From Shinella zoogloeoides (GTDB lineage: Bacteria; Pseudomonadota; Alphaproteobacteria; Rhizobiales; Rhizobiaceae): a DNA stretch of 64,000 nt. The stretch is from positions 62,001-126,000 of the forward strand of contig NZ_CP093530.1 in assembly GCF_022682305.1 (NCBI RefSeq). The letters are read 5' to 3'. A model generated the notes under the pieces. The model did no database searches. It saw only the letters and a program-made list of their open reading frames with translations, and was not told where the DNA came from. This document shows, piece after piece, positions 6,101-63,774 of the stretch. The translations under genes were made by a program, and so were the position numbers. The first letter of the stretch is position 1, and the number at the start of each line of letters is the position of its first letter.

Positions 6101-6131
6101 TTGAAGCTCTAGTCGCTAGAGAGAGTAAACG
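6101..6131 (+). promoter_or_regulatory. MerR-type promoter upstream of eptA
   Basis: -35 TTGAAG (6101-6106) and -10 TAAACG (6126-6131) are separated by 19 bp, the over-long spacer typical of MerR-activated promoters. The spacer holds the perfect dyad CTCTAG-TCG-CTAGAG (6107-6121). It matches six other promoters in this window in phase and half-site. The eptA start codon is 36 bp downstream. The weaker -35 (AAG instead of ACC) makes this the least canonical of the set. Confidence 0.7.
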
Positions 6132-6167
6132 TTGCCAAAAAGCTCGCGGACAAATGGGTATCGAGGC

Positions 6168-7838
6168 ATGAAACACATGGCCGCTGCAACGCTCAGGGCG
6201 CAATTGAACCGATTCCGGCCGCAGCTGGGGGATCTTGTTACGAGCATTGTGGTAGCGGTTTACCTGCTGCTGTTCCTTAATGCCACCTTCTGGTCCAAGG
6301 CGGGGCTCTACCTGAAAAATGATCCTTCGGCCTATGCGGCGCTTTGGGTCGCCATCTTCGCGCTTTTTGCAATTGGCACAGTAGCTGTTTCAATAAAGTA
6401 CATCATCAAACCGGTTCTCATACTCTACATTGCCGTGGCGACGGCGGCGGCGTGGTTTACGGATACCTACGGTGTATTTGTGGACACGGATATGGTGCGC
6501 AACGCTTTTGAAACGACCAAGGCGGAATCACAAGATCTGCTCACTCCAGGGCTCATTAAGCATTTTGCACTCTATTTCTTCCTGCCGACCGCATTTCTGA
6601 CCTGGATACGCATCGTCCATCAGCCGTTCGGCCGTAAGATTCGTCAAAACGCGATAACGATCTTCGTCTGCTTTCTAGTTTTCGTGAGTTTGGGCGCGGC
6701 ATTCTACAAGCCGTACTCAGCAGTTGTTCGTACCAAAAGAGATCTGATAAAAACGCTCAATCCAATCACGCCGCTTGTTAGCACGACAAAGTATATCCTC
6801 GGCGCAAGCCAGGAGATCATCATATCGGTGAAGCCGGTGGGTGGGGATGCAAAAATTGATGCGCGAGCAGATGGTTCCACCAAGCCTCGCGTCGCTATCA
6901 TCGTCGTGGGAGAGACGGCACGCGCCGCGAACTTCTCCCTGGACTCGTACGCGCGTGAGACCAATCCGGAGCTCGCACGGCAAGACGTCATTTACTTTTC
7001 GAATGTTTCAAGCTGCGGCACGGCCACTGACGTTTCCTTACCCTGCATGTTCTCCAATCTGAAGCGATCGGGTTACGACCATAAGACCGGATTGGAGAAC
7101 GAGAACGTCCTCGATGTTCTCGTCCGTGCGGGGGTTGATGTGACCTGGATGGAAAACAATACCGGCAGCAAGGGTGTTGCCGACCGAGTTCGCAACGTGA
7201 TCATTACAGGATCGTCCGATTCACAGTTCTGCAAGGACGGTGACTGCAAGGACGAGATATTCTTGGAGAAGATCGATGAATGGCTGAACGGGATTACGAA
7301 GGACAGCGTCCTGGTGTTGCATCAACTCGGCAATCATGGTCCAGCTTACTACGAGCGTTATCCGGATGCGTTTCGAAAATTCATTCCTGACTGCCGGACG
7401 ACGGAGCTTTCCCGATGCAAGGACTCGGAGATCGTCAACGCTTATGACAACGCCATTCTCTATACGGATTTCATCCTATCGAAGATCGTAGAACGTCTGA
7501 AGGCGCGGACAGTGACGCTATCCACCGGCTTCCTCTACGTTTCGGACCATGGCGAATCGCTCGGCGAGAATAATCTATACCTGCATGGCACGCCCTACTT
7601 CATGGCGCCAGACGAACAGACGCGTGTGCCGCTGATCGCATGGTTCGATCGGCAATTCGCCTCATCCATGGGGTTAAATCTCGATTGCCTGAAAAAATCT
7701 GCGACGATGCCGTTGTCGCACGATAATCTCTTCTCCAGCTTGCTTGGCATGATGAACGTCACGACCAAAGCCTACGAGCGTGATCTCGACATGTTCGCCG
7801 CCTGTCGCGGGGCATTGGCGGCCCTCCCGGGCTCCTGA
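6168..7838 (+). CDS. eptA: phosphoethanolamine transferase (EptA/MCR-like)
   Basis: Inner-membrane enzyme that transfers phosphoethanolamine from phosphatidylethanolamine to lipid A or another envelope acceptor. The N-terminal third has about five transmembrane helices (for example SIVVAVYLLLFLNATFW). The periplasmic alkaline-phosphatase-fold domain carries VVGETARAANFSLDSYARET with the nucleophile Thr, SCGTATDVSLPCMFS, HQLGNHGPAYYERYP and VSDHGESLGENNLYLHG, giving the zinc ligands. The 556-residue length is normal. I took ATG 6168; a TTG at 6132 is possible. It is preceded by a metal-type MerR promoter, which is unusual for this family, and is convergent with dinB across a long hairpin. Confidence 0.92.
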   Translation: MKHMAAATLRAQLNRFRPQLGDLVTSIVVAVYLLLFLNATFWSKAGLYLKNDPSAYAALWVAIFALFAIGTVAVSIKYIIKPVLILYIAVATAAAWFTDTYGVFVDTDMVRNAFETTKAESQDLLTPGLIKHFALYFFLPTAFLTWIRIVHQPFGRKIRQNAITIFVCFLVFVSLGAAFYKPYSAVVRTKRDLIKTLNPITPLVSTTKYILGASQEIIISVKPVGGDAKIDARADGSTKPRVAIIVVGETARAANFSLDSYARETNPELARQDVIYFSNVSSCGTATDVSLPCMFSNLKRSGYDHKTGLENENVLDVLVRAGVDVTWMENNTGSKGVADRVRNVIITGSSDSQFCKDGDCKDEIFLEKIDEWLNGITKDSVLVLHQLGNHGPAYYERYPDAFRKFIPDCRTTELSRCKDSEIVNAYDNAILYTDFILSKIVERLKARTVTLSTGFLYVSDHGESLGENNLYLHGTPYFMAPDEQTRVPLIAWFDRQFASSMGLNLDCLKKSATMPLSHDNLFSSLLGMMNVTTKAYERDLDMFAACRGALAALPGS

Positions 7839-7928
7839 CCTCATTCAGAAACCTAAGAGCATATCGGGGGCGTGGGCGCCCGGCGTCGTGAGGCTTTTCA
7901 GCATACACAATCGTTGGCCTAATGTTTA

Positions 7929-7974
7929 CGATATAGCCGCGCGAACGGTGACATTGTTCCGCGCGGCTATATCG
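7929..7974. terminator. long hairpin, probable bidirectional terminator
   Basis: Arms CGATATAGCCGCGCGAAC (7929-7946) and its near-perfect complement (7956-7974, one extra G) flank a 9-nt loop. It lies between the convergent eptA and dinB genes, and the right arm contains the dinB stop codon (TAG on the minus strand at 7967-7969) and its last codons. There is no clear T-run, so a bidirectional terminator is the likeliest reading; a processed 3' end is an alternative. Confidence 0.6.
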
Positions 7975-11403: not shown

Positions 11404-12162
11404 GTGGCCAACCATGCCCTCAATCCCGTGCTTGCCGAGCTTCGCGAGCGCATTGGCCAGCTTGAAGGCGGGGTCGCTCGCGCCCGCTCCGTGCTGCCCT
11501 TTGCCGTTCCGGAGATCGACCGGGCCTTGCCGGGAGGAGGGCTGGCCATCGGCGCACTGCATGAGGTTGCCGGCGGGGGAGGCGGCACGGTCGACGGTGC
11601 GGCTGCCGCGCTGTTTTCCGCGGGCGTCGCCGCCCGGACGAAGGGTAAGGTCTTGTGGTGCATGACGCGCCCGGACCTCTTCTTCCCGGCGATCTCGCAG
11701 GCCGGCCTTCATCCTGACCGGGTCGTTTTCTGCGAAAGCGATCGGGAGGTGGAGGTGCTGTCCTCCATGGAGGAGGGGCTGTCTTTCGGCGGTCTCTCCT
11801 GCGTCGTCGGCGAGCTCGTCCGCCTGTCGATGACAGCCTCGCGCCGCCTGCAGCTCGCGGCGGAGAAGACCGGCAGCATGGCGATCGTGCTGCGGCGCTG
11901 GCGGCGGCAAAACGAGGCGTCGGACTATGGGCAGCCGACGGCCTCAACCACACGCTGGCGCATCAGCACCTTGCCGTCCGAGCGGTTGCCGGTGGCCGGC
12001 GTCGGGCGGGCGCGGTGGCTGGCGGAACTGATGCGCGTCAAAGCAGGCGAATGCGCCGAATTCGAAATTGGAGCCCCTGATGACACGGGTCGTATCTGTC
12101 TACTTCCCACATCTGGCGACAGAGCGGATCAGACGACACGCTGGCGAAGCCTTGCCGGCTGA
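11404..12162 (+). CDS. imuA: ImuA, RecA-like accessory protein of damage-induced mutagenesis
   Basis: 252 residues, RecA-fold family that works with ImuB and DnaE2 in translesion synthesis. Seen: LGFE-like opening AELRERIGQLEG, VPEIDRALPGGGLAIGALHEVAG (the region equivalent to the Walker A loop but without a classic GKT), KVLWCMTRPDLFFPA and VVGELVRLSMTASRRLQLAAEKTG. GTG 11404 is the start, with AAGGAG about 17 bp before it. The reading frame runs 83 bp into imuB, more than the usual few bases, so the last ~27 residues may differ from relatives. LexA box upstream. Confidence 0.88.
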   Translation: MANHALNPVLAELRERIGQLEGGVARARSVLPFAVPEIDRALPGGGLAIGALHEVAGGGGGTVDGAAAALFSAGVAARTKGKVLWCMTRPDLFFPAISQAGLHPDRVVFCESDREVEVLSSMEEGLSFGGLSCVVGELVRLSMTASRRLQLAAEKTGSMAIVLRRWRRQNEASDYGQPTASTTRWRISTLPSERLPVAGVGRARWLAELMRVKAGECAEFEIGAPDDTGRICLLPTSGDRADQTTRWRSLAG

Positions 12163-13594
12163 CAAGCCGCTCGTCGTGATCGCGCGGCGTGGATCGAAGC
12201 GCTGGATCTCGGCTGCCGATCCGGCTGCCATGAAGCTCGGGCTGCGCGTCGGAATGCCGGCGAGCAAGGCGCAGGCCATGGTCGCCGATCTCACGATGGT
12301 CGATGCCGCACCGGCCGAAGATGCGGCCGCGCTCGAGCGGCTCGCGCTCTGGGCGCTTCGGCAATATAGCCCGGTGGTGGCCATCGATGGCGCTGACGGC
12401 CTGGTCATCGACACCGAGGGCGCCGACCATCTCCAGGGCGGCGAGGATCTCCTCATCACGGGCCTGGTCAATCGGCTGCGTGGCCATGGCCTGACAGCAA
12501 GAGCGGCCGTCTCGGATACCTGGGGCGCCTCGCACGCGATCGCCCGGCTGATCTCGGCGGAGGCGACCGTGGTTCCGGTCGGCAATGTGGCGAAAGCCGT
12601 GGTCGACCTGCCGATCCTCGCCTTGCGGCTTCCGGCCGAGACGGTCCAGGGCCTTCGGGTTCTCGGCATCGATACAGTCGGCCAGCTTTCCGCCATGCCG
12701 CGTGCGCCGCTCACCCTGCGCTTTGGGGCAGACCCAGCACGCCGGCTCGACCAGTTGTTCGGCCGGATCGCCGAGCCGATCGAACCGATCCGCACGCCGG
12801 AACTGGTCGAGGTGTCGAAAAATTTCGCGGAGCCCATCGGCGCGGCGGAGACCATCGCAAAATATGTCAGGCGGCTGGTCGATCAGCTCTCGGTCAAGCT
12901 GGCGGAGAATGGCCTTGGGGCGCGCCGCTGTGACCTTGCCATCCACCGGGTCGACAATACGCGCCAGCATCTTCGCGCCGGTCTCGCCAAGCCGGTGCGC
13001 GATCCAGAACGCTTGTCGAAACTGCTCTGCGATCGGATTGAGACGATCGATCCTGGCTTCGGCATCGAGAAGCTGGTTCTGGTGGCGGTCTTCGCCGAGC
13101 CGCTGGAAGAACGGCAGGTGGTCTCCTCGCTCATCGAGGAGGAGATTGCCGATATCACGCCCCTCGTCGACATCCTCGGCAATCGCGGTCATCGATTGTT
13201 CCGGGTCGCGCCGGTGGCCTCTGATGTGCCGGAACGATCGGTGCGGCGAATTCCCGCGACAGCGCCCGATATCGGTCAGATCTGGGCCAACAAATGGCCT
13301 CGGCCGTCGCGGCTGCTCGCAAACCCCGAGCGGATCGACGTCATGGCGCTCCTGCCGGACCAGCCGCCGGTCGTGTTCACCTGGCGCGGCAAAAGGCGAA
13401 AGGTCGTTCGCGCCGACGGCCCGGAACGGATCTTCGGAGAATGGTGGACGCGGCCGCGCGAATTCCAGGCCGTCAGGGACTACTTCGTGGTCGAGGACGA
13501 GCTTGGCGAGCGCTACTGGGTTTATCGTGCCGGCGACGGCATAGATCCGGAGACCGGCTCCCACCTGTGGTTCCTGCATGGGGTGTTCGGATGA
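12080..13594 (+). CDS. imuB: ImuB, catalytically inactive Y-family polymerase
   Basis: 504 residues. Its fold is that of Y-family polymerases, but the N-terminus reads [16 protein letters not shown] in place of the catalytic DMDAFYASVE, so the first metal-binding Asp is missing, as expected of ImuB, which acts as an adaptor between the beta clamp, ImuA and DnaE2. ATG 12080 was preferred over TTG 12068. The stop overlaps the dnaE2 start as ATGA (13591-13594). The C-terminal part ([29 protein letters not shown]) is the ImuB-specific tail. Confidence 0.93.
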
Positions 13595-16500: not shown

Positions 16501-16851
16501 GAGGATGAGACGGGCATCATCAACGCGGTTATCTGGCCGAAGGTGTTCGAGCGCCAGCGCCGGCTCGTGCTCTCCAGCTCGATGTTGGCGATCAATGGAA
16601 AGATCCAGCGCGAAGGCGACGTGGTGCATCTGGTTGCGCAACGTCTGTTCGATCTCTCTGAAGACCTCGGCCGCCTGGGCGAGCGAGACGAGCAGTTTCC
16701 CTTGCCCCACAGACGAGGGGATGAGTTCGCCCATGGCAATGGCGCGCCGGATCCGCGTGATCGGCCAAAGGCGGCAGTGTCGGCACGTGAGATATACGTG
16801 CCGGACTTGCTGATCGATCGGTTGAAGGTCAAGAGCCGAAATTTCCATTGA
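13591..16851 (+). CDS. dnaE2: error-prone DNA polymerase III alpha subunit
   Basis: C-family polymerase of 1086 residues that carries out lesion bypass with ImuA/ImuB. The N-terminal PHP domain starts [22 protein letters not shown]. The palm contains [21 protein letters not shown] and the catalytic Asp triad region [16 protein letters not shown]. Later come the HhH region and an OB-fold ([22 protein letters not shown]). Start ATG 13591 is fixed by the overlap with imuB; a longer in-frame opening to 13294 is only a shadow of imuB. Last gene of the LexA-controlled cassette; nothing resembling a strong terminator follows. Confidence 0.96.
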
Positions 16852-47466: not shown

Positions 47467-47497
47467 TTGCACCTCAAGTACCTAGAGGTTTTATGAT
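47467..47497 (+). promoter_or_regulatory. MerR-type promoter upstream of dsbA-ppi-ldt-lspA operon
   Basis: -35 TTGCAC (47467-47472), 19-bp spacer and a near-consensus -10 TATGAT (47492-47497). The spacer holds the dyad ACCTCAAG-TAC-CTAGAGGT (one mismatch). The operon's first start is 26 bp further on. Spacing and half-sites match the other six. Confidence 0.72.
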
Positions 47498-47522: not shown

Positions 47523-48164
47523 ATGTTCAGGCGACAATTTCTGGGATCGACCGCGGCAGCTTTCACCTTGCTGGCCGCAAACCGCGTTGTTGCGCAGACG
47601 GCCGCCACAGGCTCGGCGACGGACCTCTTGCAGCCGGGGCCGTTGCCCGAGCGGATTCTGGGGCGCGACGACGCACCGGTTACCGTTATCGAATATGCGT
47701 CGATGACATGCGGGCATTGCGCCAACTTTCACTTGAATATCTGGCCAGCCTTCAAGGCAGAGTTCATCGATACGGGTAAGGTCCGCTTCATTCTCCGCGA
47801 GTTCCCGTTTGATCCGCGCGCGACCGCCGCCTTCATGCTCGCCCGCTGCACGGGTGACGACAGATGGTATCCGACGGTCGACCTCCTCTTCCGTAACCAG
47901 CCGCGCTGGGCGCGTGCTCAGGACGGCAAGGAAGGGTTCCTCTCGGTCCTGTCGATGACCGGTCTCAAGGAGGCCGATCTTGAGGCTTGCCTTAGCGACC
48001 AGGCGCTGCTCGACAAAGTCAATGCGGTCGCGGCCAGAGGTCAGGAACTTGGCGTCGATTCGACGCCGACCTTCTTTATCAACGGCGAAAAATACACCGG
48101 CGTAATGCCGATCGAGCAATTGCGCGCCGTCATCGAACCGATTGTCGCGGGAGCAAAGAAGTGA
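47523..48164 (+). CDS. DsbA-like periplasmic thiol oxidoreductase
   Basis: 213 residues. A Tat-like signal (FRRQFLGSTAAAFTLLAANRVVAQ) leads into a thioredoxin domain with the active site TCGHCANFHLNIWPAF (CGHC) and the cis-Pro loop STPTFFINGEKY. It is of the Com1/BdbD type rather than classical DsbA. It begins a tightly packed operon; its stop overlaps the start of the parvulin gene. Preceded by a MerR-type promoter. Substrates are not identifiable. Confidence 0.9.
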   Translation: MFRRQFLGSTAAAFTLLAANRVVAQTAATGSATDLLQPGPLPERILGRDDAPVTVIEYASMTCGHCANFHLNIWPAFKAEFIDTGKVRFILREFPFDPRATAAFMLARCTGDDRWYPTVDLLFRNQPRWARAQDGKEGFLSVLSMTGLKEADLEACLSDQALLDKVNAVAARGQELGVDSTPTFFINGEKYTGVMPIEQLRAVIEPIVAGAKK

Positions 48165-49033
48165 TGCTGCTGAAAATCAGGAACGTCTTTCTTTCCGCGC
48201 TCTTTCTGGTCGCTGTTCCAGCCTTCGCCGAGGAACGGGCGGATCAGGTAGCAGCTCGCGTCGGAGATTCCGAGATTCTGGAATCCGACGTATCGTTCGC
48301 AACCTCGTTCCTCGGCGATCCTAATCCCAAGGCAACACCCGAGGCACGCAAGTCCGCGGTCGTCGATGCGCTGATCGACCTCAAGGTGGTCTCTGACGCC
48401 GCGATCAAGGACGGGCTGGAGAACGACGAGACGTTCAAGCGGCAGATGGTGTTCCTGAGGCAACAGGCGCTTCGGCAGGCCTATCTCGCCAAGGCTGCCG
48501 CCGCCGCTGTAACCGAGGACGCACTGCGCAAGGTCTATAACGAACGGGTCGCCGCCATGCCGTCGGTCGAAGAGGTTCGCGTCCGGCACATCCTGCTGAA
48601 GGACAGGGCTGGCGCTGAGGCGGCGATGAGGGATATAGCCGCGGGCAAGTCCTTTGAAGAGGTGGCCGGGAGCGTTTCGCTGGATGAGACGTCGAAGAAG
48701 AGCGGCGGTGATCTTGGCTTTCTGACAATGGAACAACTCCCGCCGGAGCTGGGAGAGGCGATCGTAACGATGAAGACCGGTGAGATTGCCGCAAAGCCCG
48801 TGGAGACGCCCTTCGGCTTTCATGTCGTAAAACTTGAAGAGCGGCGCAAGCGTGAACCACCGGCATTCGAGGTTGTGTCGACGGAGTTGCGCCGTGGCAT
48901 GGAAGCCCAGGCGGTGAGCAAGATCGTCGCTGACCTCAAGGCGGCCGCGCGGATAGAGAAGCTCGTGCCCGATGTTGCGATGCCTGAGGGATCGGATGAC
49001 GGACACGAGCATGGTGCCGAGGGCGGGGAATAG
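48164..49033 (+). CDS. parvulin-type peptidyl-prolyl isomerase
   Basis: 289 residues exported by MLLKIRNVFLSALFLVAVPAFA. An N-terminal SurA/PrsA-like chaperone helix region is followed by a parvulin domain: VRVRHILLKDRAGAEAAMRDI, SGGDLGFLTMEQLPPELGEAIVTMKTGEIAAKPVETPFGFHVVKLEE (in part). The tail DDGHEHGAEGG is His-rich. GTG 48161 is possible, but ATG 48164 shares the TGATG overlap with dsbA. Probably folds periplasmic or outer-membrane proteins together with the neighbouring DsbA. Confidence 0.9.
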   Translation: MLLKIRNVFLSALFLVAVPAFAEERADQVAARVGDSEILESDVSFATSFLGDPNPKATPEARKSAVVDALIDLKVVSDAAIKDGLENDETFKRQMVFLRQQALRQAYLAKAAAAAVTEDALRKVYNERVAAMPSVEEVRVRHILLKDRAGAEAAMRDIAAGKSFEEVAGSVSLDETSKKSGGDLGFLTMEQLPPELGEAIVTMKTGEIAAKPVETPFGFHVVKLEERRKREPPAFEVVSTELRRGMEAQAVSKIVADLKAAARIEKLVPDVAMPEGSDDGHEHGAEGGE

Positions 49034-49102
49034 CGCAACTCTATCGTTTCTTTCGTGCAATCCCGTTCCCTTGTTCTGATTATTCTCGTGTCCCGGCATC
49101 TC

Positions 49103-50143
49103 ATGCGGTCGCTCCATTCTCTGCTGCCAAAATTCCTCGCCGTCTCTCTCATCGCGATCATGCTATCGGGATGCGTTGCCATGGAGCTCGCCGAACTCTC
49201 CAGCGAGCCGCCGAAGCTTTCCGCCGCCGTCGTGGCCGCGATGGCGAAGAAGGGTATGCGGCCTGAAGATCCTGTCCTTGTGCGGATATTCAAGCAGGAG
49301 AGTGAGCTGGAGGTGTGGAAGGCGGATGCATCAGGCCGTTACAAGCTCTTCAAGACCTATCCGATGTGCCGCTGGTCCGGCAAACTCGGCCCCAAGACGA
49401 AAGAAGGCGATCGCCAGGCGCCGGAAGGCTTCTATCATGTCTCGGCCGGGATGCTGAATCCGCAGTCGCAGTACTATGTCTCGTTCAATCTCGGTTATCC
49501 CAACCGTCTTGAAGCTGCGCTCGGCTACACCGGTGAGGCGCTGATGGTCCATGGCGCCTGCTCGTCGTCGGGTTGCTACGCCATGACCGATCAGGGCGTC
49601 GGTGAGATCTATGCCATCGCTCAGAAGGCGCTGCAAAGCGGTCAGGACAGCTTTCAGGTCCAAGCCTATCCGTTTCGCATGACCGCGGAGAACCTCGCCA
49701 AGCATCGAGGGGATTCGAACATGCCGTTCTGGCTCACCCTCAAGGAGGGCTACGACCAATTCGCTTTTTCGAAGCGCCAGCCGAAGGTCGCGGCCTGCGA
49801 ACGGCGCTATGTGTTCAACAGGGAGTTCGAGGGGGGCGATCCGCGCAATCCGCTCGCCGCCTGTCCGGTATCGTCCAGCGGGGCTTCGGCCGACCTCCTG
49901 TCAATGGTGGCGACGGAGCGTGGCAAGGTGGACGCGGCGCTTGCCGCCGAAAAGTCGGCCGCGGCGCTCGCTTATGTGGACGGCGGAATGCATCCAAGCT
50001 TCCGGGCTCTTTTGAAGAAACAGGGGGCCTCGAAGCTGGCGGAGGATATCTCGATCATAAAATATCCGGTCAGTCGGCCGGAGGCTGCGCTTGCCGATCC
50101 CTATTCGGGCACGTCTGCTGTCAGCGGGGCGTCGGATGACTGA
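49103..50143 (+). CDS. YafK-type murein L,D-transpeptidase, lipoprotein
   Basis: 346 residues. MRSLHSLLPKF (49103) gives a lipoprotein signal with lipobox LSGC; an upstream GTG at 49055 is less likely. The YkuD-type domain has VRIFKQESELEVW, FKTYPMCRWSGKLGPK and the active site VHGACSSSGCYAM. YafK (DpaA) hydrolyses or forms links between peptidoglycan and lipoprotein. The C-terminal 120 residues are unassigned. It overlaps the next small gene by 8 bp. Confidence 0.87.
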   Translation: MRSLHSLLPKFLAVSLIAIMLSGCVAMELAELSSEPPKLSAAVVAAMAKKGMRPEDPVLVRIFKQESELEVWKADASGRYKLFKTYPMCRWSGKLGPKTKEGDRQAPEGFYHVSAGMLNPQSQYYVSFNLGYPNRLEAALGYTGEALMVHGACSSSGCYAMTDQGVGEIYAIAQKALQSGQDSFQVQAYPFRMTAENLAKHRGDSNMPFWLTLKEGYDQFAFSKRQPKVAACERRYVFNREFEGGDPRNPLAACPVSSSGASADLLSMVATERGKVDAALAAEKSAAALAYVDGGMHPSFRALLKKQGASKLAEDISIIKYPVSRPEAALADPYSGTSAVSGASDD

Positions 50144-50336: not shown

Positions 50337-51026
50337 ATGCTTGAAGACACCAACACCGTCGCGCGCCGCGGATTTCTTCTCGGGACGCTTTCCATGGCGC
50401 TGGCGGCCTGTTCCACGACATCCCCCTCCGCCGTGCCCAGCGTAGCACGACGTCCGATGGGCGTGCCGAGCGAGGAGGAACTGGCCGCTCGCTATGCCGC
50501 GATGGAGGATGGCGGTCATCAGCTGCCGGCCGTTCCCTTCCGGCAAATTGATCCAAAATTCTACCGCCAGCGTGTTTTCAATACGACGGGCGAGCCAGCC
50601 GGCACTGTGGTGGTCGATACCGGTTCGAAGTTTCTCTATGTCGCGGAGCCCGGCGGCACCGCGATGCGCTACGGGGTTGGGCTTGGCCGCGCGGGATTTG
50701 CCTGGGAAGGCGAGGGGGTTATCCAGTGGCGCCAGAAGTGGCCGCGCTGGAAGCCGCCGGCGGAAATGATCGCGCGCCAACCCGAGCTTGCGAAATTCTC
50801 TGTCGAGAACGGTGGACAGGAGCCAGGGCCGGACAATGCGCTCGGCGCCCGCGCGCTCTACATCTTCCAGAATGGCGAGGACACGCTTTACCGTCTGCAC
50901 GGAACACGTGAGTGGAACTCTATCGGAAAATCCGTGTCCTCCGGCTGCGTGCGGTTGGTCAATCAGGATGTCATCGACCTCTACACCCGCGTGCCTTCCA
51001 AGGCACGCATTGTCGTACGCACGTAG
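50337..51026 (+). CDS. L,D-transpeptidase, YkuD/ErfK family
   Basis: 229 residues. VARRGFLLGTLSMALAACS combines a Tat-like twin Arg with a lipobox-like AAC. The active site is LHGTREWNSIGKSVSSGCVRL. It resembles the enzyme at 35.0-35.6 kb, with matching GVGLGRAGFAW and ALYIFQNGEDTLYRLHGT. It probably makes 3-3 peptidoglycan crosslinks. It sits 4 bp before lspA. Confidence 0.9.
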   Translation: MLEDTNTVARRGFLLGTLSMALAACSTTSPSAVPSVARRPMGVPSEEELAARYAAMEDGGHQLPAVPFRQIDPKFYRQRVFNTTGEPAGTVVVDTGSKFLYVAEPGGTAMRYGVGLGRAGFAWEGEGVIQWRQKWPRWKPPAEMIARQPELAKFSVENGGQEPGPDNALGARALYIFQNGEDTLYRLHGTREWNSIGKSVSSGCVRLVNQDVIDLYTRVPSKARIVVRT

Positions 51027-51029: not shown

Positions 51030-51536
51030 ATGCGGTTGGTAGTTGAAAGAAAAGGCGAGCTCGCCGCCTTGTTTGCGTTCGGCGCCGCAATCTTCCTCGT
51101 GGACATCGCTCTCAAGCACTTCATGGTCACGGCGGTGATGAACCCGCCGCGGATCATTCCCGTCACACCGTTCTTCAATCTCGTGCTCGTCTACAATCCC
51201 GGCGTCAGCTTCGGAATGTTCGCCGAATGGATATCGGCGGCGCCACAGCTTTTTGCCGTTCTGAAAGCATGCATCGTTGCCGGGCTCCTGTCGTGGGCCG
51301 CTCTTTCGCGCCGGATGGTTGAGCGGCTGGCACTGTGCATGGTCGCGGGAGGAGCGATGGGCAATCTCGTCGACCGGTATGCCGACGGCCAGGTCACCGA
51401 CTATCTGGATTTCTATGCGGGACAGTGGCATTGGCCATCGTTCAACCTTGCCGATGTGGCCATCGTGGCTGGTGCGGGCCTCATGATCGTTGTTGCTTCT
51501 TTCCACAGAGACACTGCAACGAGCCAATCATCATGA
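51030..51536 (+). CDS. lspA: lipoprotein signal peptidase (signal peptidase II)
   Basis: 168 residues, four transmembrane helices. Catalytic Asp residues are in GGAMGNLVDRYADGQVTDYLDF and FNLADVAIVAG. NPGVSFGMF matches the family NxGaaFg block. It removes signal peptides from prolipoproteins such as the YafK-like protein of this operon. Signal peptidase II copies inside metal-resistance operons are known (for example pbr-type clusters), so this is likely an accessory copy besides a chromosomal housekeeping gene. Confidence 0.92.
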   Translation: MRLVVERKGELAALFAFGAAIFLVDIALKHFMVTAVMNPPRIIPVTPFFNLVLVYNPGVSFGMFAEWISAAPQLFAVLKACIVAGLLSWAALSRRMVERLALCMVAGGAMGNLVDRYADGQVTDYLDFYAGQWHWPSFNLADVAIVAGAGLMIVVASFHRDTATSQSS

Positions 51537-56510: not shown

Positions 56511-56541
56511 TTGACCCTCTAGCTGCTTGAGGGTCCATAAT
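56511..56541 (+). promoter_or_regulatory. MerR-type promoter upstream of dsbB-dsbA
   Basis: -35 TTGACC (56511-56516), 19-bp spacer, -10 CATAAT (56536-56541). The dyad ACCCTCTAG-CTG-CTTGAGGGT spans 56514-56534, one mismatch between arms. dsbB starts 29 bp downstream. Confidence 0.82.
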
Positions 56542-56570: not shown

Positions 56571-57011
56571 ATGAGCGTTCGGGACAAGAGATCGGAAGAC
56601 GATGGGTGGCTGACGCTGTTCCTCGCATGGATGGTTGCGCTTATCGCTTCGCTCGGGGCTCTCTTCATCGGCGAAGTCATGGGCCAGACGCCGTGCATCT
56701 TATGTTGGTATCAGCGCGCGTTCATGTTTCCGCTGGCGCTAGTCCTGGCGGTTTCCGCCTTTCGCATGGACCGTGGCGTATGGCGCTATGCGTTGCCGCT
56801 GAGTGGAGCAGGTCTGTTGATCGCGACATACCACGTCCTGCTATATTACGGCTTCATTCCGGAGGCAGTCGTTCCTTGTGGGAAGGGGCCTTCCTGTACT
56901 GATGCGAAGATGACCATTTTCGAGGTGATCCCGCTGCCGGTGCTGTCACTTCTGGCATTCGCCGCGATTTCATTCCTCCTCCTCATCGACCGAAGGGAGC
57001 ATGCCCGATGA
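56571..57011 (+). CDS. dsbB: disulfide bond formation protein B
   Basis: 146 residues, four transmembrane helices. Redox Cys pairs are in QTPCILCWYQRAFM and VVPCGKGPSC. It oxidises DsbA-like partners and passes electrons to quinone. The stop overlaps the following thiol oxidoreductase as ATGA (57008-57011), so the two form a dedicated pair. Preceded by a MerR-type metal promoter. Confidence 0.92.
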   Translation: MSVRDKRSEDDGWLTLFLAWMVALIASLGALFIGEVMGQTPCILCWYQRAFMFPLALVLAVSAFRMDRGVWRYALPLSGAGLLIATYHVLLYYGFIPEAVVPCGKGPSCTDAKMTIFEVIPLPVLSLLAFAAISFLLLIDRREHAR

Positions 57012-57655
57012 ACCGAGCGCTCGTCATCACTCTCACCGCGCTTGCCGCGCTCGCTGTTTTTGGAGGAGGTGCCTACTACTACACTGCGCAGCAGAAAGAA
57101 CATGCGGCTTCTGTCACAGCGTCGGCGGATACGCTCGTGCGCGCGCATTCGCCGATTCTGGGTAAGGAAGACGCACCCGTCACGATCGTGGAGTTCTTCG
57201 ACCCCTCATGCGAGGCCTGCCGCGCCTTCTTTCCGCTTGTGAAGAATATCCTGGCGACCTATCCGGATGATGTGCGTGTGGTGATCCGCTATACCACATT
57301 CCACAAGGGCTCCGACGAAGCCGTGCGCATCCTCGAGGCGGCACGCAAACAGGACAAGTTCGAGCCGGTCCTTGCGGCGCTTGTGGACAAGCAGCCCGAG
57401 TGGGCTACTCACGGGGAGCCTGACATGAAGCGGGCCTGGAACATTGCCGGTGAGGCGGGTCTGGAACTCATGGGCGCCCGTCTCGACAGCGTGAAGCCGG
57501 AAGTTGATCAGGTGCTTCAGACCGATCTAGCGGACGTCAAGGCGAACAATGTCGAGCAGACGCCTACGTTCTTCGTCAACGGCAAGCTGCTGGTCAATTT
57601 CAGCCCGCAGGGCTTGATCGATCTGGTGAAAGGCGAAGTCGACAAGACGAGTTGA
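57008..57655 (+). CDS. DsbA-like thiol oxidoreductase, DsbB partner
   Basis: 215 residues. N-terminal anchor LVITLTALAALAVFGGGAYYY. Thioredoxin domain with active site DPSCEACRAFFPLV (CEAC) and cis-Pro EQTPTFFVNGK. Similar architecture to the oxidoreductase at 47.5 kb. Translationally coupled to dsbB, it is the likely electron donor to it. Confidence 0.9.
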   Translation: MNRALVITLTALAALAVFGGGAYYYTAQQKEHAASVTASADTLVRAHSPILGKEDAPVTIVEFFDPSCEACRAFFPLVKNILATYPDDVRVVIRYTTFHKGSDEAVRILEAARKQDKFEPVLAALVDKQPEWATHGEPDMKRAWNIAGEAGLELMGARLDSVKPEVDQVLQTDLADVKANNVEQTPTFFVNGKLLVNFSPQGLIDLVKGEVDKTS

Positions 57656-57787: not shown

Positions 57788-58396
57788 TCACGCCCCGCCC
57801 ACTTCCGCGAGATTGCGCAGTTTCTTCAGACGGGTTTCTCGCGGCTCGTGCATGTCCAGCATACCTTGGAACCGACCATCCGCATCCATGAGAAAGATGC
57901 CCGCTGTGTGGTCCATTGTATAGCTGCCGCCCTCGGTATCGACCCTTTTGGCTGTTGCCCGGAACGCTGACAGCGCCTGATCCGTTTGCTTCCGCGTGCC
58001 GCGCACCGCGATGATCCTCGGATCGAATGCTTCCATGTACAGCGAAAGCAGGTTCTGCGTGTCACGTTCCGGATCGACGGATATGAGAAGCGCGTTGAAC
58101 GCATCGGCCTGCGGACCGAGTTCCTTCATGAGATCCGTCAGTTCGAACAGCGTGGTCGGGCAGATGTCCGGGCAGTGCGTAAAGCCGAAGAATGCGAGGT
58201 AGGGCCTGCCGCGTAGGCTTCTATCCGACACGGCCTCGCCGCGATGGGACGTCAGTTCAAACGGGCCGCCGATCCCGCCGGTGGGCTCGGTTTCGGCCAT
58301 ATTCGCAAGAACCAGAGCTCCGGAGACGAGGCCGCCAACCAACAGGGCGGCGATTGCGGATCCGAAGAGCGCACGTCGGCTGTAAATCGACGTCAT
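57788..58396 (-). CDS. SCO1/SenC-family copper protein
   Basis: 202 residues. Single N-terminal anchor (ALFGSAIAALLVGGLVSGALVL) and a thioredoxin-fold domain with the copper ligands FTHCPDICPTTLFE (CxxxC) and His in MDHTAGIFLMD. SCO proteins deliver copper to oxidases or act as thiol reductants. Overlaps the PCuAC gene as ATGA. Highly similar to the second SCO at 63.1-63.7 kb (shared LAFFGFTHCPDICPTTLFE). Confidence 0.93.
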   Translation of the reverse strand: MTSIYSRRALFGSAIAALLVGGLVSGALVLANMAETEPTGGIGGPFELTSHRGEAVSDRSLRGRPYLAFFGFTHCPDICPTTLFELTDLMKELGPQADAFNALLISVDPERDTQNLLSLYMEAFDPRIIAVRGTRKQTDQALSAFRATAKRVDTEGGSYTMDHTAGIFLMDADGRFQGMLDMHEPRETRLKKLRNLAEVGGA

Positions 58397-58896
58397 GGGG
58401 TTGCGCCATGGCCCTGATGGTCTTCGTTTTCAGCCGGCTGTTTCGCGCCCATGCCCTGAACCGCGAATTCAACCTTGATCTCGCCGGCCTTTTCGAAACG
58501 GAGTGTCGCCTCGACCTTTTCGCCTTCCTTGAAAACCTTCGTGGGCTTGATGAACATGAGGTGGGTAGCGCCTGGCGCAAGCTCGACCGTTTCACCCGGT
58601 TTGATCGTCACCCCTGCGGTCAGTAGTCGCATGCGGGCGACGCCATCTTGAAGAGTCGACTCGTGCACTTCAACCGCCGTTGCGATCGGAGAGCTGCCGC
58701 CAAGGAATGTGTCAGATTCGGCGCCGGTATTCGTGATCTTCAGATAGCCGCCGGCAACGGGAGCGACCATCGGCGTTGCACGCGACCAGGGATGATCGAT
58801 CTGCAGATCACCAGCGCTATAATCATGCGCAAATGCGGCGGGCCCTGCTGCGAGGGAAAGCGTGAACATAAGAACAGGGGTGAAAAGACGTTTCAT
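58393..58896 (-). CDS. PCuAC periplasmic copper chaperone
   Basis: 167 residues with a signal peptide ending AAFA-HD. The copper motif is intact: VHESTLQDGVARMRLL (His then Met) and ATHLMFIKPTK (His-x-Met). The C-terminus is His-rich (EDHQGHG). It hands copper to SCO and oxidases and is coupled to a SCO gene here. A MerR-type promoter precedes it. Confidence 0.93.
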   Translation of the reverse strand: MKRLFTPVLMFTLSLAAGPAAFAHDYSAGDLQIDHPWSRATPMVAPVAGGYLKITNTGAESDTFLGGSSPIATAVEVHESTLQDGVARMRLLTAGVTIKPGETVELAPGATHLMFIKPTKVFKEGEKVEATLRFEKAGEIKVEFAVQGMGAKQPAENEDHQGHGATP

Positions 58897-58944: not shown

Positions 58945-58975
58945 GCTCTACACCCTCTAGCAGCTTTAGGGTCAA
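58945..58975 (-). promoter_or_regulatory. MerR-type promoter upstream of PCuAC-SCO
   Basis: On the minus strand: -35 TTGACC (58975-58970), 19-bp spacer, -10 TAGAGC (58950-58945). Dyad ACCCTAAAG-CTG-CTAGAGGGT (58952-58972). The PCuAC start is 48 bp downstream. Confidence 0.8.
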
Positions 58976-59033: not shown

Positions 59034-59450
59034 TCAATCGTGATCCGAGCAGCATAGGTCGTGTGAAGCGAGCGCCCGGATCACATAACAATCCCGCACA
59101 TGATTGTTGTGCTGGTGAGAGGTTATGCGCTCTAGTTCGATTTCAAGCTTCCGGAGCTTGGCGATCTTGTCGCGAACGGAGGCAAGTTGCTCAAGGGCAA
59201 TTCGGTCGGCATCCGCGCAGGGTTTGTCAGGGTGATGGCTGAGTTCGATAAGGGATCGTATGGCATCTATCGAAAGGCCCAGATCACGGGAGTGCTTTAT
59301 GAAGGTCAGGCGATCCATCTCCTCCTTGGTATAGCGGCGCTGATTGCCTTCGGAGCGCTCCGCGTGGGGAAGAAGACCCATTTGCTCATAGTAGCGGATT
59401 GTCGGGATTTTCACGCCGGAGGTCTTCGAAAGATCACCAATCGTCAACAT
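59034..59450 (-). CDS. heavy-metal-responsive MerR-family regulator
   Basis: 138 residues. MerR HTH: LTIGDLSKTSGVKIPTIRYYEQMGLLPHAERSEGNQRRY. Dimerisation helix SVRDKIAKLRKLEIELERI. Three metal-candidate Cys sites: KPCADADRIAL, RDCYVIRAL and DLCCSDHD, the pattern of CadR/PbrR/HmrR-type sensors. It starts at 59450, 29 bp after a small membrane-protein gene on the same strand. A candidate activator of the 19-bp-spacer promoters. Confidence 0.87.
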   Translation of the reverse strand: MLTIGDLSKTSGVKIPTIRYYEQMGLLPHAERSEGNQRRYTKEEMDRLTFIKHSRDLGLSIDAIRSLIELSHHPDKPCADADRIALEQLASVRDKIAKLRKLEIELERITSHQHNNHVRDCYVIRALASHDLCCSDHD

Positions 59451-59791: not shown

Positions 59792-60211
59792 TCATGTCAT
59801 GTTCTCGTGGGATGGGGACAATGATTCGATGATGCGGCAGTCGCCCACCGTGCCGCTCGAGCATTGAGACAGCATCCGATCGAGCTCGCTCCGCAATGCG
59901 TTCAGATCGGCGATCTTCCGCTCGACCTCCAGCAGATGTTCCTTGGCGATCGCATCGACCGCTCCGCACGGCCGGCTCTTGTCGTCTGAAAGATCGAGCA
60001 GTGTTCGAATCTGATCGAGCGAGAAGCCGAGATCGCGTGCACGCCGGACGAAGCTTAGGCGATTGAGGTGCGAGCGCTCGTAGGACCGGTAATTGCCGCC
60101 CGTACGCGCTGGTGCGGGTAGAAGGCCGCTTTTCTCGTAGAACCGTATAGTTTCGACCTTCGTGCCGGTCATTTGCGCCAGCGCCCCGATGGTCAGCGGG
60201 CGGTTTGCCAT
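59792..60211 (-). CDS. heavy-metal-responsive MerR-family regulator (second copy)
   Basis: 139 residues. HTH LTIGALAQMTGTKVETIRFYEKSGLLPAPARTGGNYRSY. C-terminal metal-candidate residues: SRPCGAVDAIA, and SQCSSGTVGDCRIIESL with two Cys, the CadR/PbrR/ZntR-type arrangement. It is divergent from copZ-P1B ATPase and lies about 180 bp from copZ, so it is the likely activator of the promoter at 60317. A dyad with the same CTGTA half-site lies 11 bp before its own ATG. Confidence 0.9.
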   Translation of the reverse strand: MANRPLTIGALAQMTGTKVETIRFYEKSGLLPAPARTGGNYRSYERSHLNRLSFVRRARDLGFSLDQIRTLLDLSDDKSRPCGAVDAIAKEHLLEVERKIADLNALRSELDRMLSQCSSGTVGDCRIIESLSPSHENMT

Positions 60212-60221
60212 AGCTTCATCC

Positions 60222-60316: not shown

Positions 60317-60347
60317 TTGACCCTGTAGCGACTACAGAGCGCACATT
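60317..60347 (+). promoter_or_regulatory. MerR-type promoter upstream of copZ-P1B ATPase
   Basis: -35 TTGACC (60317-60322), 19-bp spacer, -10 CACATT (60342-60347). Dyad ACCCTGTAG-CGA-CTACAGAGC (60320-60340). copZ starts 41 bp downstream and a merR gene is divergent. Confidence 0.82.
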
Positions 60348-60388: not shown

Positions 60389-60610
60389 ATGACCTCTTCC
60401 CTCACCACCATCGATCTCAAGATCGAAGGCATGGATTGCGGCCATTGCATCAGTACAGTCGAGAAGGCGGTTCATGCCCTGCCGGGCATCGAGGAGGTCA
60501 AGGTCTCCCTTTCCGATAACAACGCGATAATCAGCTTTGATGCTGCCCTTACGTCGCAGGATGCGATCGTCGAAGCTGTCGAGGACGCAGGGTATGACGT
60601 TCCGCGATGA
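60389..60610 (+). CDS. copZ: CopZ-like HMA metallochaperone
   Basis: 73 residues, one heavy-metal-associated domain: KIEGMDCGHCISTVEKAVHALPG with the GMDCxxC site and AIVEAVEDAGYDV at the end. Soluble cytoplasmic copper carrier that feeds a P1B ATPase. The stop overlaps the ATPase start as ATGA (60607-60610). Confidence 0.92.
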   Translation: MTSSLTTIDLKIEGMDCGHCISTVEKAVHALPGIEEVKVSLSDNNAIISFDAALTSQDAIVEAVEDAGYDVPR

Positions 60611-62684
60611 TCACGCTTGAGCTTCCCATTGGCGGCATGGATTGCGCCGCCTGTGCCAAGAAAGTCCAGCGGGCCCTGAAGAAGCTCCCCGGCGTCGTAA
60701 ATGTCGAGGTGCTCCTGAGTGCTGAAAAGGCCGTCATCGACCATGACCCGAAACTCGTGACGCGCGAGGCATTACAGGCGACGGTGGAAAAGGTCGGCTT
60801 CACCGTCCCGGCGCCTCAGGCGGCCGATACAGCCTATATGATTCAAGGCAATCTGCTGCAACGGCAGCTCTTTACGCTGCTTGGCGTGCTGTTCGGCGTC
60901 ATCCTGTTTCTCGTCGTTATTGGGGAAGGCCTTGGTCTGTTCGACGTGGTTACGGATCGCGTCCCTCTCTGGCTTGGGACGGCGGTGGTCCTCGCGTTTG
61001 GTGCGCCGATCTTCCTCGATGTTGGTCGCTCGGCCCTTCGCCTGGAGGTGACGAGCCACACGCTTATGTCCGTAGGTGCCGTCGCGGCCCTGGTCACCGG
61101 CCAATGGGCGACGGCGGCGATCGTCGTCTTCTTCATGCGCATTGGTGTGTTCGCCGAGCGCTTCACCAGCGAAAAGGCACGGCAGCTTCTGAAGGGGTTG
61201 ACCGCGCTCGCGCCGCAAAAGGCGCGCGTGCTGCGTGGTGGAGAGGAGATCGAGGTGACGATCGAAGCGGTTGCGGTCGGCGACACGGTTATCGTGCGCC
61301 CGGGCGAGCGCGTTCCTGTCGACGGTATCGTGATCGAAGGGCAGGCGACCCTCGATCAGGCGGCCATCACGGGCGAGAGCATGCCCGTAGAAGCGGAAGC
61401 CGGAGACAAGGTTTTTGCGGCCACGCTCGCCAAACTGGGACATCTCAAGCTCGAGGCCGAACGGATCGGTCGTGACACGACCTTCGGTCGCACGATCAAG
61501 CTCGTCGAGGAGGCGGAAGCCAACCGCGGCGAGGTGCAGCGGGTCGCCGACAAGTTCAGTGGATACTATCTGCCGGTCGTCGCGACGATCGCGATTCTTA
61601 CCTACCTGCTGAGTGGGAACGTCCTCTCGGTTGTTGCCGTCCTGGTCGTCGCGTGCTCCTGCTCGTTTGCACTCGCCACACCTATCGCGATGATGGCCTC
61701 GATCGGCGCAGCAGCGAAGCGTGGCCTGCTCATCAAGGGCGGCAAGTATGTCGAAGCCATCAAGGTCGCGGATGTCGTCCTTATGGACAAGACGGGCACT
61801 TTGACGACGGGAAAGCCACGTGTGACGGATGTCGTGTCGCTGGATGGCACGCCGGAGCAAGCACTTCTGCAGCTTGCGGCCATCGCCGAGCGCCATTCCG
61901 AACATCCCTGGCCGAGGCCGTTCGCAATCACGCTAAGGATCGAGGCGTCAAGGGTGGTGAGCCAGAGCGTTTCGAGGCAATTCCGGGCAAGGGTATTCGC
62001 GCCACCGTCGATGGGCAGGTTGTTGAGATTGGGAACCGGCGGCTGGTGGATGTGGACGAGCGCTTTGATGATGTCGCTCGCTTGGAAGATGAGGGGAAGA
62101 CACTTCTGATCATGGCTGTCGATGGCCGCCCGGCCGGAATCTTTGCGGCGATGGATACGGTGCGACCGGAAGTCTCCGATGCGATCACGGAAATCCGCAA
62201 GCTTGGTATTGCGCGGATCGAGCTTCTGACAGGGGACAACGAGCGCACGGCCGCTGCCATCGCGAGCCCGCTCGGGATCGGTTTCCAGGCGAACCTGCTC
62301 CCCGAGGACAAAATCCGCGTCGTGAAGGAGCTGCAGGAGAAGGGCCATCGGGTCGTAATGGTTGGGGATGGCGTCAACGACGCGCCGGCGCTCGCGCAGG
62401 CCGATGTGGGCATCGCCATGGGCGGTGGAACGGATGTCGCGATGGAGGCGGCCCATATCGTGCTCATGCGGGAGAACTGGACGCTCGTCGCCGACTCCTT
62501 CCGCATCGCGCGACGCACGATGGGGGTGGTCAGGATGAACATCGCCTTTACCGCGCTTTACAATCTTGTCGGTCTTTCGCTTGCAGCGTTCGGGGTCATT
62601 CCGCCGATCTTCGCCGCCGCGATGCAGTCGATACCGGACATCGGGATTCTTGCGAATTCTTCACGCTTGATCCGGCAGAAGTAG
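60607..62684 (+). pseudogene. P1B-type metal ATPase with a single-base frameshift
   Basis: The first frame (60607-62109) has HMA motif GGMDCAACAKKV, TGESMPVEAEAG and DKTGTLTTGKPR, and reaches AERHSEHPWPRP. The expected text is SEHPLAEAVRNHA, which resumes in another frame to 62684 with LLTGDNERTAAAIA, MVGDGVNDAPAL and LYNLVGLSLAAFGVIPP. One C missing from the CCC at 61906-61908 explains it; repaired length is about 691 residues. The transmembrane metal motif reads ACSCSFALATP, with Ser where the usual CPC has Pro. Natural frameshift or sequencing error cannot be distinguished here. Confidence 0.8.
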
Positions 62685-62782: not shown

Positions 62783-62953
62783 GTGGGCGGCAAGAAGAAG
62801 ATCTATAGGCAGGATCCGCATTTCCGAAGCGTGGTGCGGACCAATCGAAAGAGGCACGCGTCGCCTCATCTGATCAAACGCGTCCGCATCGCTCTCTGCG
62901 CGACAGGCCTCATGATAGCGGCACTTTTCGTGGTGTTTATCAATCTTATCTGA
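62783..62953 (+). CDS. putative small membrane protein, 56 residues
   Basis: GTG 62783 with CGGAGAAA 6 bp before it. A basic N-terminus (VGGKKKIYRQDPHFRSVVR, KRVRIAL) is followed by a C-terminal helix GLMIAALFVVFINLI. Basic head plus single membrane helix is plausible for a regulator of the adjacent ATPase, but the function is unknown. It lies 98 bp after the ATPase stop. Confidence 0.5.
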   Translation: MGGKKKIYRQDPHFRSVVRTNRKRHASPHLIKRVRIALCATGLMIAALFVVFINLI

Positions 62954-63052
62954 CTCGGTAGGCAAGTCGCTATGCGGCTACCAGAACGCTCATGACCGCG
63001 AAATGCAGCACTCTTCTTTGGCGCAGGCCGGGATATCGAAAAAGGCAGTCTT

Positions 63053-63658
63053 TTACGAGGTGACATCCTTTAGGAGCCTCATCCGCTCTTCACGAGGTTC
63101 CTCCATCCGCAACAACCTGACGAAGCGGCCATCCGCGTCAATTACGTAGACGCCAGCCGTGTGCTCCATCGTGTACTGGCCGCCGTCCAGGGGAACTTTC
63201 TTTGCGAAGGCGGCAAAGGATTTGACGACGTCGTCGGTCTGCTGGCGCGTGCCGCGCAAGGCGACAAAGCGCGGATCGAATGCCGTCATGTATTGAGAGA
63301 GCAGTTCCTGACTGTCGCGCTTCGGATCGACGGAAATCAGCAGCACCTTGAGGTTGTCTGCCGCGGGCCCGAGTTCCTTCATCATGTCGGTCAGTTCGAA
63401 AAGGGTCGTAGGGCAAATATCGGGGCAGTGCGTAAAGCCGAAGAACGCGAGGTATGCCGTTCCGGCCAACGACGTCGAATTGAACGTTTCCCCCGTATGG
63501 GTTTCCATCGAGAATGGACCGTTCAGGGGGAAGGATTGCTGCGAGAGGCGGTCCTTGTCGGATTGCAGCGTCCAGGTCAGCACGGCGAGCACAACAGCAA
63601 GGATCGTGATCGTCGCCCATGTGACCCTTCTCACGATCCTCAAAGTCTTCGATGCCAT
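63053..63658 (-). CDS. SCO1/SenC-family copper protein (second copy)
   Basis: 201 residues from MASKTLRIV (63658), with GTGGAG before it. Anchor VTWATITILAVVLAVLTWTL, then the SCO domain with FTHCPDICPTTLFE and His in MEHTAGVYVID. Close paralogue of the SCO at 57.8 kb. It is transcribed divergently from the redoxin-like gene at the window end, and each has its own MerR-type promoter. Confidence 0.93.
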   Translation of the reverse strand: MASKTLRIVRRVTWATITILAVVLAVLTWTLQSDKDRLSQQSFPLNGPFSMETHTGETFNSTSLAGTAYLAFFGFTHCPDICPTTLFELTDMMKELGPAADNLKVLLISVDPKRDSQELLSQYMTAFDPRFVALRGTRQQTDDVVKSFAAFAKKVPLDGGQYTMEHTAGVYVIDADGRFVRLLRMEEPREERMRLLKDVTS

Positions 63659-63692
63659 GCAAAACGCTCCACTTTCTTGCGATCTGGCTGGT

Positions 63693-63723
63693 CTTCTAAA
63701 GGCTGAAGCGGCTTCAGGGTCAA
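63693..63723 (-). promoter_or_regulatory. MerR-type promoter upstream of the second SCO gene
   Basis: Minus strand: -35 TTGACC (63723-63718), 19-bp spacer, -10 TAGAAG (63698-63693). Dyad ACCCTGAAG-CCG-CTTCAGCCT (63700-63720). The SCO start is 34 bp downstream. Confidence 0.75.
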
Positions 63724-63743
63724 CGGGCACAGAATGATTCGTC

Positions 63744-63774
63744 TTGACCCTCTAGTTGGTAGAGGGCGTACGGC
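63744..63774 (+). promoter_or_regulatory. MerR-type promoter upstream of the terminal redoxin-like gene
   Basis: -35 TTGACC (63744-63749), 19-bp spacer, weak -10 TACGGC (63769-63774). Dyad ACCCTCTAG-TTG-GTAGAGGGC (63747-63767). Back-to-back with the SCO promoter, the two -35 elements being 20 bp apart. Confidence 0.72.

Follow-up and report, generated by a model that had tools for sequence, protein, structure and literature searches.

The window analysed here is a stretch of 64,000 nucleotides from Shinella zoogloeoides, bases 62001-126000 of contig C3 (145,386 bases) in a genome of 5.14 Mb. It encodes two MerR-family regulators, MerR1 and MerR2, and holds seven dispersed promoter-like sites, A to G, that precede genes for lipid A modification, disulfide formation, murein enzymes, lipoprotein maturation and metal handling (Table 1). 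Five Shinella plasmids encode a MerR1 of 100% identity, so contig C3 is most likely a plasmid. A preliminary description of this DNA had read the seven sites as a single regulon. We find that sites A, B, C, D and G are probably the promoters of one plasmid-borne, ZntR-type regulon of spare envelope genes, commanded by MerR1 in response to zinc or cadmium.

Table 1. Promoter sites, regulators and genes downstream of the sites, in window coordinates
Feature	Position	Strand	Promoter and dyad, or profile match	Class or remark
Site A	6101..6131	+	TTGAAG-19-TAAACG, dyad CTCTAGtcgCTAGAG	CTC class; 5' of eptA
eptA, lipid A phosphoethanolamine transferase	6168..7838	+	PF08019, PF00884; NF028537 574.7 bits (cut-off 500)	start follows the annotation of the identical gene in WSC3-e
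Site B	47467..47497	+	TTGCAC-19-TATGAT, dyad CCTCAAGtacCTAGAGG	CTC class
dsbA-like thioredoxin	47523..48164	+	PF13462, PF01323	first gene of site B operon
PpiC-type peptidyl-prolyl isomerase	48161..49033	+	PF00639	
DpaA/LdtF/YafK-like murein enzyme	49055..50143	+	NF040599 220.8 bits (below cut-off 365); PF03734 23.1 bits (below 23.4)	
YkuD L,D-transpeptidase	50337..51026	+	PF03734	
lspA, signal peptidase II	51030..51536	+	PF01252; TIGR00077 above cut-off	
Site C	56511..56541	+	TTGACC-19-CATAAT, dyad CCTCTAGctgCTTGAGG	CTC class
dsbB	56571..57011	+	PF02600	
dsbA (second)	57008..57655	+	PF13462	
SCO1/SenC (first)	57788..58396	-	PF02630	
PCuAC copper chaperone	58393..58896	-	PF04314	
Site D	58945..58975	-	TTGACC-19-TAGAGC, dyad CCTAAAGctgCTAGAGG	CTC class, left half changed
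merR1, ZntR-like regulator	59034..59450	-		Pro at recognition position 16
merR2, CadR/PbrR/CueR-like regulator	59792..60211	-		Glu at recognition position 16; presumed regulator of site E
Site E	60317..60347	+	TTGACC-19-CACATT, dyad CTGTAGcgaCTACAG	CTG class (CTGTAG-N3-CTACAG), not MerR1-type
copZ-like HMA protein	60389..60610	+		by eye; copper ion binding protein in the record of the matching plasmid
P1B ATPase	60607..62684	+		two reading frames (frameshifted)
SCO1/SenC (second)	63053..63730	-	PF02630	longest open reading frame; true start probably further in
Site F	63693..63723	-	TTGACC-19-TAGAAG, dyad CTGAAGccgCTTCAG	ambiguous (CTGAAG/CTTCAG)
Site G	63744..63774	+	TTGACC-19-TACGGC, dyad CCTCTAGttgGTAGAGG	CTC class, right half imperfect
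Redoxin/TlpA-like gene	63788..64000	+	PF08534	runs beyond the window end (L033:1788-2357)

The identities first given to the downstream genes stand, except that the first of two supposed L,D-transpeptidase genes encodes an LdtF/DpaA/YafK-like protein, the P1B ATPase is frameshifted and the redoxin gene extends past the window. All seven sites (7/7, read directly) place a TTG-type -35 element (TTGNNN), a 19-base-pair (bp) spacer and a -10 element beginning with TA or CA around a dyad, which supports their original designation as MerR-type promoters. The statement that the dyads are built on CCCTCTAG/CTAGAGGG was too broad: sites A, B, C, D and G are of the CTCTAG/CTAGAG type, with deviations, whereas site E has CTGTAG/CTACAG and site F has CTGAAG/CTTCAG. 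The boxes of the first five, which we term the CTC class, read CCTC(T/A)AG-N3-CT(A/T)GAGG or are close variants of it; that of site E defines a CTG class.

A pattern covering the sites, TTGACCCTSWAGNNNCTWSAGNG, which was composed after they had been seen and was searched with at most 3 mismatches, has nine matches in the window (the seven sites and the second strand of two dyads), compared with a mean of 0.09 and a maximum of 1 in 100 dinucleotide shuffles. Across the genome it has 20 matches, against 11 for the same pattern read backwards. At a limit of 2 mismatches, the list shrinks to C1:1825925, six window sites (all but site B, which has 3) and, for one of those six, its second strand as well. 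In addition to the nine window matches, four on the chromosome are taken as real: C1:581421, where a CTC-class box (TTGCACCTCTAGTGGCTAGAGGT) precedes zntA; C1:1825925, in front of an isoprenylcysteine-methyltransferase-like gene; and the pair C1:1508098 and C1:1508820, which precede genes for a metal ATPase and a MAPEG protein (all genes named by eye). The remaining seven are taken as chance. When the CTC pattern was required to have at most 4 mismatches and a TA or CA -10 element, exactly the seven sites were recovered in the window, and a piecewise search of the rest of contig C3 to 3 mismatches found no further site. At up to 6 mismatches with a TA or CA -10 element, no box was found 5' of cyoA, merR1, the multicopper oxidase gene, the MAPEG gene, copC or the YkuD gene, and the region upstream of merR2 gave a single 6-mismatch match, on the opposite strand.

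The two regulators share 45% identity, and both match PF13411, PF09278 and PF00376 above cut-off. MerR1 is 76% identical to a chromosomal ZntR-like protein encoded beside zntA, the promoter of which bears the CTC box. All scores against the more specific NCBIfam models fall below cut-off, both for MerR1 (CadR-PbrR 106.1 of 151.45, CueR 98.7 of 147.4, ZntR 88.3 of 167.95) and for MerR2 (CueR 126.0, its best, with a cut-off of 147.4; CadR-PbrR 121.1). MerR2 keeps all three metal cysteines; MerR1 keeps C78 and C121, with Gln at the third.

One residue of the recognition helix tracks the class of box. It is Pro in MerR1 and in 80/80 of its relatives, and Glu in MerR2. Among regulators of relatives whose genes lie no more than 400 bp from a box that has a TA or CA -10 element, those beside CTC boxes have Pro in 33 of 35 cases (one Thr and one Ala in the others) and those beside CTG boxes have Glu in 18/18 and Pro in 0/18, with identical stretches counted once and relatedness left uncorrected. 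In a published correlation of protein with DNA sequence across the MerR family, Glu at a helix position likewise goes with the half-site bases G and T (PMC5045206), the matching of residue numbers to that work being our own. With two MerR proteins that differ in recognition residue, and with two classes of box, the seven sites are best understood as two circuits instead of the single regulon of seven originally proposed, and a common class for all seven sites was dropped after this comparison. Sites A, B, C, D and G are best read as fitting MerR1, and perhaps its chromosomal paralogue as well, and site E as fitting MerR2. Site F is ambiguous, and nearer to E than to the CTC class. Elsewhere in the genome, a third Pro-class MerR-like protein (L010, G000:C1:3503752) has no cysteine in the reading shown, and could bind CTC boxes without sensing metal. 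On plasmid 3 of Pseudorhizobium flavum (L124:13274), a CTG box lies between a mer operon and the gene of its regulator, which shares 47% identity with MerR2; boxes of this class are thus not bound to one metal.

The CTC box recurs on the same kinds of gene across other Rhizobiales. We examined 80 loci holding MerR1 relatives; a scan of genome contigs had confirmed 527 stretches, and these are the best 80 of them. In the box counts both strands of one palindrome may each score. With 0-1 mismatch the box has 64 matches in the 80 loci and 0 when reversed, and at 3 mismatches the numbers are 52 and 32. A ZntA homologue is present in 17/18 of the loci whose MerR1 relative is 72-78% identical (L042-L059). 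Behind the boxes in the 80 loci lie zntA, dpaA-like, SCO, dsbB-dsbA, lspA, dsbA-ppi, methyltransferase and PCuAC-like (25-27% identical) genes, and p5 of Rhizobium oryzihabitans has six boxed promoters within 40 kilobases (SCO, dsbB-dsbA, dpaA-like, lspA, YkuD-lspA and zntA). The box is kept while operons are reshuffled, the dpaA-like gene and eptA being separately boxed in some plasmids and included in a boxed dsbA operon in others.

Over the wider group, 62 of 121 genomes have a box with at most 1 mismatch (103 matches versus 30 reversed). The genes behind these boxes, tallied for relatives only in 96 rows of which three are repeats (L189 2339, of L170, and both L190 rows), are ZntA (39), dpaA-like (10), CDF (7), isoprenylcysteine methyltransferase (5), dsbA-ppi (4), the second dsbA (3, of which 2 distinct), SCO (2, of which 1 distinct), PCuAC (2) and dsbB (1). 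The 23 unlabelled rows comprise, by eye, nine CDF-like genes, one zf-TFIIB-like gene, one Cox11/CtaG-like gene, five cases of coding noise and seven others (one a repeat). Most labelled genes belong to the set, and in this tally the box is not equally frequent upstream of unrelated genes. In related sequences, 137 of 152 dyads with TTG at -5 have the 19-bp spacer to a TA; the TTG offset is partly built into this count, because loci L157-L235 were selected by a TTG-containing pattern, and the -10 element formed part of no pattern used to choose the loci. The earlier observation of a box shared by scattered operons whose genes concern disulfides, copper chaperones, murein and lipid A is thus upheld, with the same gene kinds boxed in other bacteria.

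For eptA, the evidence differs between records. A box lies directly 5' of the gene on p-3 of Ensifer adhaerens (protein 80% identical), in Agrobacterium A74a (52%), in Shinella WSC3-e and in the relative G004; in the last two (L274 and L266) it is site A itself that is conserved, with eptA interrupted in G004. In Rhizobium ZX09, eptA sits inside a boxed dsbA-ppi-dpaA-eptA-ldt operon. Ten plasmid records of eptA thus include four with a box directly upstream (L266, L267, L271, L274), one with a box before the operon (L276), four with no box at up to 3 mismatches (L268, L272, L273, L275) and one, L270, whose fetched sequence lacks the operon start. L057 has, by eye, a 4-mismatch box before eptA. 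A further 28 eptA loci (L238-L265; 45-52% identical), out of 42 listed matches, are taken as chromosomal, an unproven assignment; none has a site with a TA or CA -10 element within about 600 bp, and a bare match with at most 3 mismatches occurs in 3/28. EptA proteins of at least 60% identity occur in 16 plasmid records, several of them near-copies, and 14 of these 16 records also encode a relative of MerR1 that is at least 71% identical. By the presence of the box, plasmid eptA appears to be a regulon member in part of the records.

Evidence on the metal comes from RNA sequencing of Mesorhizobium STM 2683 and STM 4661 under zinc and cadmium (Maynaud et al. 2013, PMC3668242). Both genomes are among the loci examined, and we matched contigs to the published labels by gene order and product. 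Genes boxed with at most 2 mismatches include cadA of STM 2683 and STM 4661, induced by zinc (log2 3.07 and 5.32) and cadmium (2.2 and 3.38), and zntA of STM 2683 (zinc 4.65, cadmium 3.48). A boxed zf-TFIIB gene followed by a CDF gene responds to zinc in STM 2683 (2.01/1.97, assigned to the plasmid copy) and in STM 4661 (1.02/1.11; -10 element starting CA), and a boxed PAP2 gene is zinc-induced in STM 2683 (1.19), where a second PAP2 copy is not assignable. The lspA gene is zinc-induced in both strains (1.64 and 1.85), the STM 4661 copy having a 4-mismatch box only (all values from PMC3668242). In both strains (L152, L149) the MerR1 homologue is surrounded by PCuAC, SCO, lspA, dpaA-like, dsbA, methyltransferase, ccdA and cadA genes (by eye), most of which have no box at up to 3 mismatches.

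Because the closest regulators are ZntR-like and boxed Mesorhizobium genes are induced by zinc and cadmium, these metals are likelier than copper. On this comparison zinc or cadmium is the likeliest signal for the CTC class; lead is possible, given the regulator family, and copper is less likely, the Mesorhizobium study having tested zinc and cadmium, not copper. The logic of metal export combined with copper delivery is not supported in the form first suggested, since the regulators and the expression data point to zinc and cadmium and the exporter behind site E is broken here. The frameshift in this P1B ATPase is also found in pShin-10 of Shinella HZN7, and three other Shinella plasmids carry a version annotated as a single gene. 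The plasmid regulon has no clear exporter among its members. The membrane motif of the P1B ATPase is Cys-Ser-Cys; the usual motif in such ATPases is CPC. A CDF gene at 5434-6006, flanked by cyoD and eptA, is truncated: its match to the family profile is confined to the second half.

In the established MerR mechanism, a dimer holds an overlong promoter and metal binding reshapes that promoter for polymerase (PMC1526738). By analogy, MerR1, and probably also its chromosomal paralogue, would occupy the box within the 19-bp spacer, and binding of Zn(II) or Cd(II), or possibly Pb(II), to MerR1 would make the promoter usable by RNA polymerase. The genes switched on would be dsbA-ppi-dpaA/ldt-lspA, dsbB-dsbA, PCuAC-SCO, the redoxin gene and eptA, at the same time as the chromosomal zntA, which has the same box, exports the metal. 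We suggest that the spare proteins replace or support periplasmic machines poisoned by zinc or cadmium, namely those for thiol oxidation, copper insertion into oxidases, links between murein and the outer membrane, and lipoprotein maturation, and that EptA reduces the negative charge of lipid A. MerR2 with site E, and probably site F, would form a second circuit. Five of the seven sites first noticed appear to mark a real, recurrent and enlarged ZntR-type regulon.

Several observations weigh against this interpretation. The -35 element of site A is poor, as are the -10 elements of sites D, E and G, and the dyad of site G is asymmetric. By the search described above, merR1 has no box of its own, and no ZntA-type gene adjoins it in the window (the P1B ATPase at 60607 follows merR2 and is not classed as ZntA). 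MerR1 reads His-Gln-His at a point in the chain where 66 of its 80 relatives carry a Cys ligand, so its metal preference may have shifted relative to theirs; 23 of the 80 have a Cys in the column next to the ligand, and the MerR1 tail has a Cys-Cys pair. No box with at most 2 mismatches is present in 30 of the 80 MerR1-relative loci, the other 50 having one or more. In the Mesorhizobium data, the boxed PAP2 gene of STM 4661 is missing from the induced list, and Tables 4 and 5 name no PCuAC, SCO, transpeptidase, dsbB or eptA gene, lspA being the only gene kind from the window sites with a zinc-induced counterpart (PMC3668242). The zntA gene of STM 4661 is induced although it lacks a box with at most 2 mismatches. 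In the same strain, the regions upstream of the PCuAC, DsbA and dpaA-like genes have no box even at 6 mismatches, and the expression of these unboxed copies is consequently no test of the boxed ones. The 2-mismatch pattern is also noisy in these genomes (8 matches versus 7 reversed in STM 4661, 14 versus 6 in STM 2683); its other matches include coding and CTTCAAG-type ones, and two of those in STM 2683 have no locus.

Some of these weaknesses would be expected if the boxes were remnants, on a resistance island that travels with zntA, with only some promoters working and the weak sites A, G and F inactive. The weak -35 or -10 elements of sites A, D, E and G, the damaged exporter at site E, the truncated CDF gene beside eptA, the several unboxed Mesorhizobium homologues and the 4/10 unboxed plasmid eptA loci are all consistent with such decay. 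However, intact boxes precede the same gene kinds across genera despite changed operon order, and site A is conserved in L266 and L274, though both are close relatives of the window; we consider the remnant explanation unlikely.

Less likely still is one regulon of all seven sites under a single copper signal, in which a CueR/HmrR-like protein controls copper delivery and export. MerR1 and MerR2 both keep a Cys at the divalent-sensor position, where CueR has Ser, and the two box classes follow one residue. Moreover, published CueR/HmrR boxes are of the ACCTTCC type (PMC1526738), unlike the window sites, and the boxed Mesorhizobium genes respond to zinc and cadmium, in a study outside which copper falls (PMC3668242). 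What such a regulon would explain is the presence of several copper-handling products (PCuAC, two SCO proteins, CopZ and a multicopper oxidase) and the best NCBIfam score of MerR2, which is for CueR and below cut-off. A redox signal through SoxR, the box of which is CCTCAAG/CTTGAGG with a 19-bp spacer, is highly improbable despite the resemblance of that box to the left half of site B and to the dpaA sites of relatives, the CTCAAG half-sites in site B and many dpaA promoters, and the disulfide genes among the targets, because a SoxR-type cysteine cluster occurs in 0/12 MerR-family loci fetched from the genome (by eye; 15 matches in total), the iron-sulfur cysteine cluster is absent from MerR1 and MerR2 (by eye), and the regulators beside such boxes are Pro-class ZntR-like proteins.

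The proposed ZntR-type regulon under MerR1 can be set beside several known systems. In the ZntR-zntA system described for Brucella and Agrobacterium, the reported target is zntA, with an effect on znuA in B. abortus, whereas the window has five boxed plasmid operons; the box of the chromosomal zntA promoter recurs in the window, and in this genome zntA is a neighbour only of the gene for the chromosomal paralogue of MerR1. CueR and HmrR are monovalent sensors that share with the window 19-bp spacer promoters at several loci. Their ACCTTCC-type box (PMC1526738) is matched by none of the seven sites. The PbrR/pbr lead operon of Cupriavidus metallidurans likewise combines a MerR regulator, a P1B ATPase and an LspA-like signal peptidase, PbrC (PMC1526738, PMC3668242), but the window adds disulfide, copper-chaperone, murein and lipid A genes and has no zntA/pbrA-type ATPase behind a CTC site. 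In Pseudomonas putida, excess zinc activates the phosphoethanolamine transferase CptA and lipopolysaccharide genes through ColRS (PMC4074579), a two-component envelope sensor in contrast to the cytoplasmic MerR sensor here. Within the same genome, the chromosomal CadR-like locus C1:1502001-1518000 also has MerR-type promoters, with two CTG boxes, a MAPEG gene, a metal ATPase and a regulator nearby; with CTG boxes and a regulator of the Glu class, it groups with MerR2 and site E, not with the MerR1 sites.

MerR-type metal regulons usually comprise few genes per genome (PMC1526738). The literature that we searched, to which most subscription journals do not belong, yields no description of a regulon with this membership, in agreement with the preliminary description; the kind of regulon is known and its reach looks new. 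By extending to lipid A, murein, oxidase assembly and the formation of disulfides, such a regulon would point to the envelope machines damaged by zinc and cadmium. The chances seem evenly balanced that a ZntR-like cytoplasmic sensor of zinc and cadmium in Rhizobiaceae controls, simultaneously with zinc export, a mobile programme of envelope rescue that is carried on plasmids and supplies spare functions for disulfides, oxidase copper, murein tethering, lipoproteins and lipid A. If so, a cytoplasmic sensor does work usually assigned to envelope two-component systems. The single residue, Pro or Glu, that tracks box class offers a rule for sorting MerR regulons in Alphaproteobacteria.

The regulon is adjoined by plasmid-borne genes for a cyoABCD quinol oxidase (936-5362), and on p5 of R. 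oryzihabitans, too, cyoABD adjoins YkuD-lspA. Further along the window, at 11404-16851, an imuA-imuB-dnaE2-like mutagenesis cassette (by eye) lies beside dinB (profile-checked).

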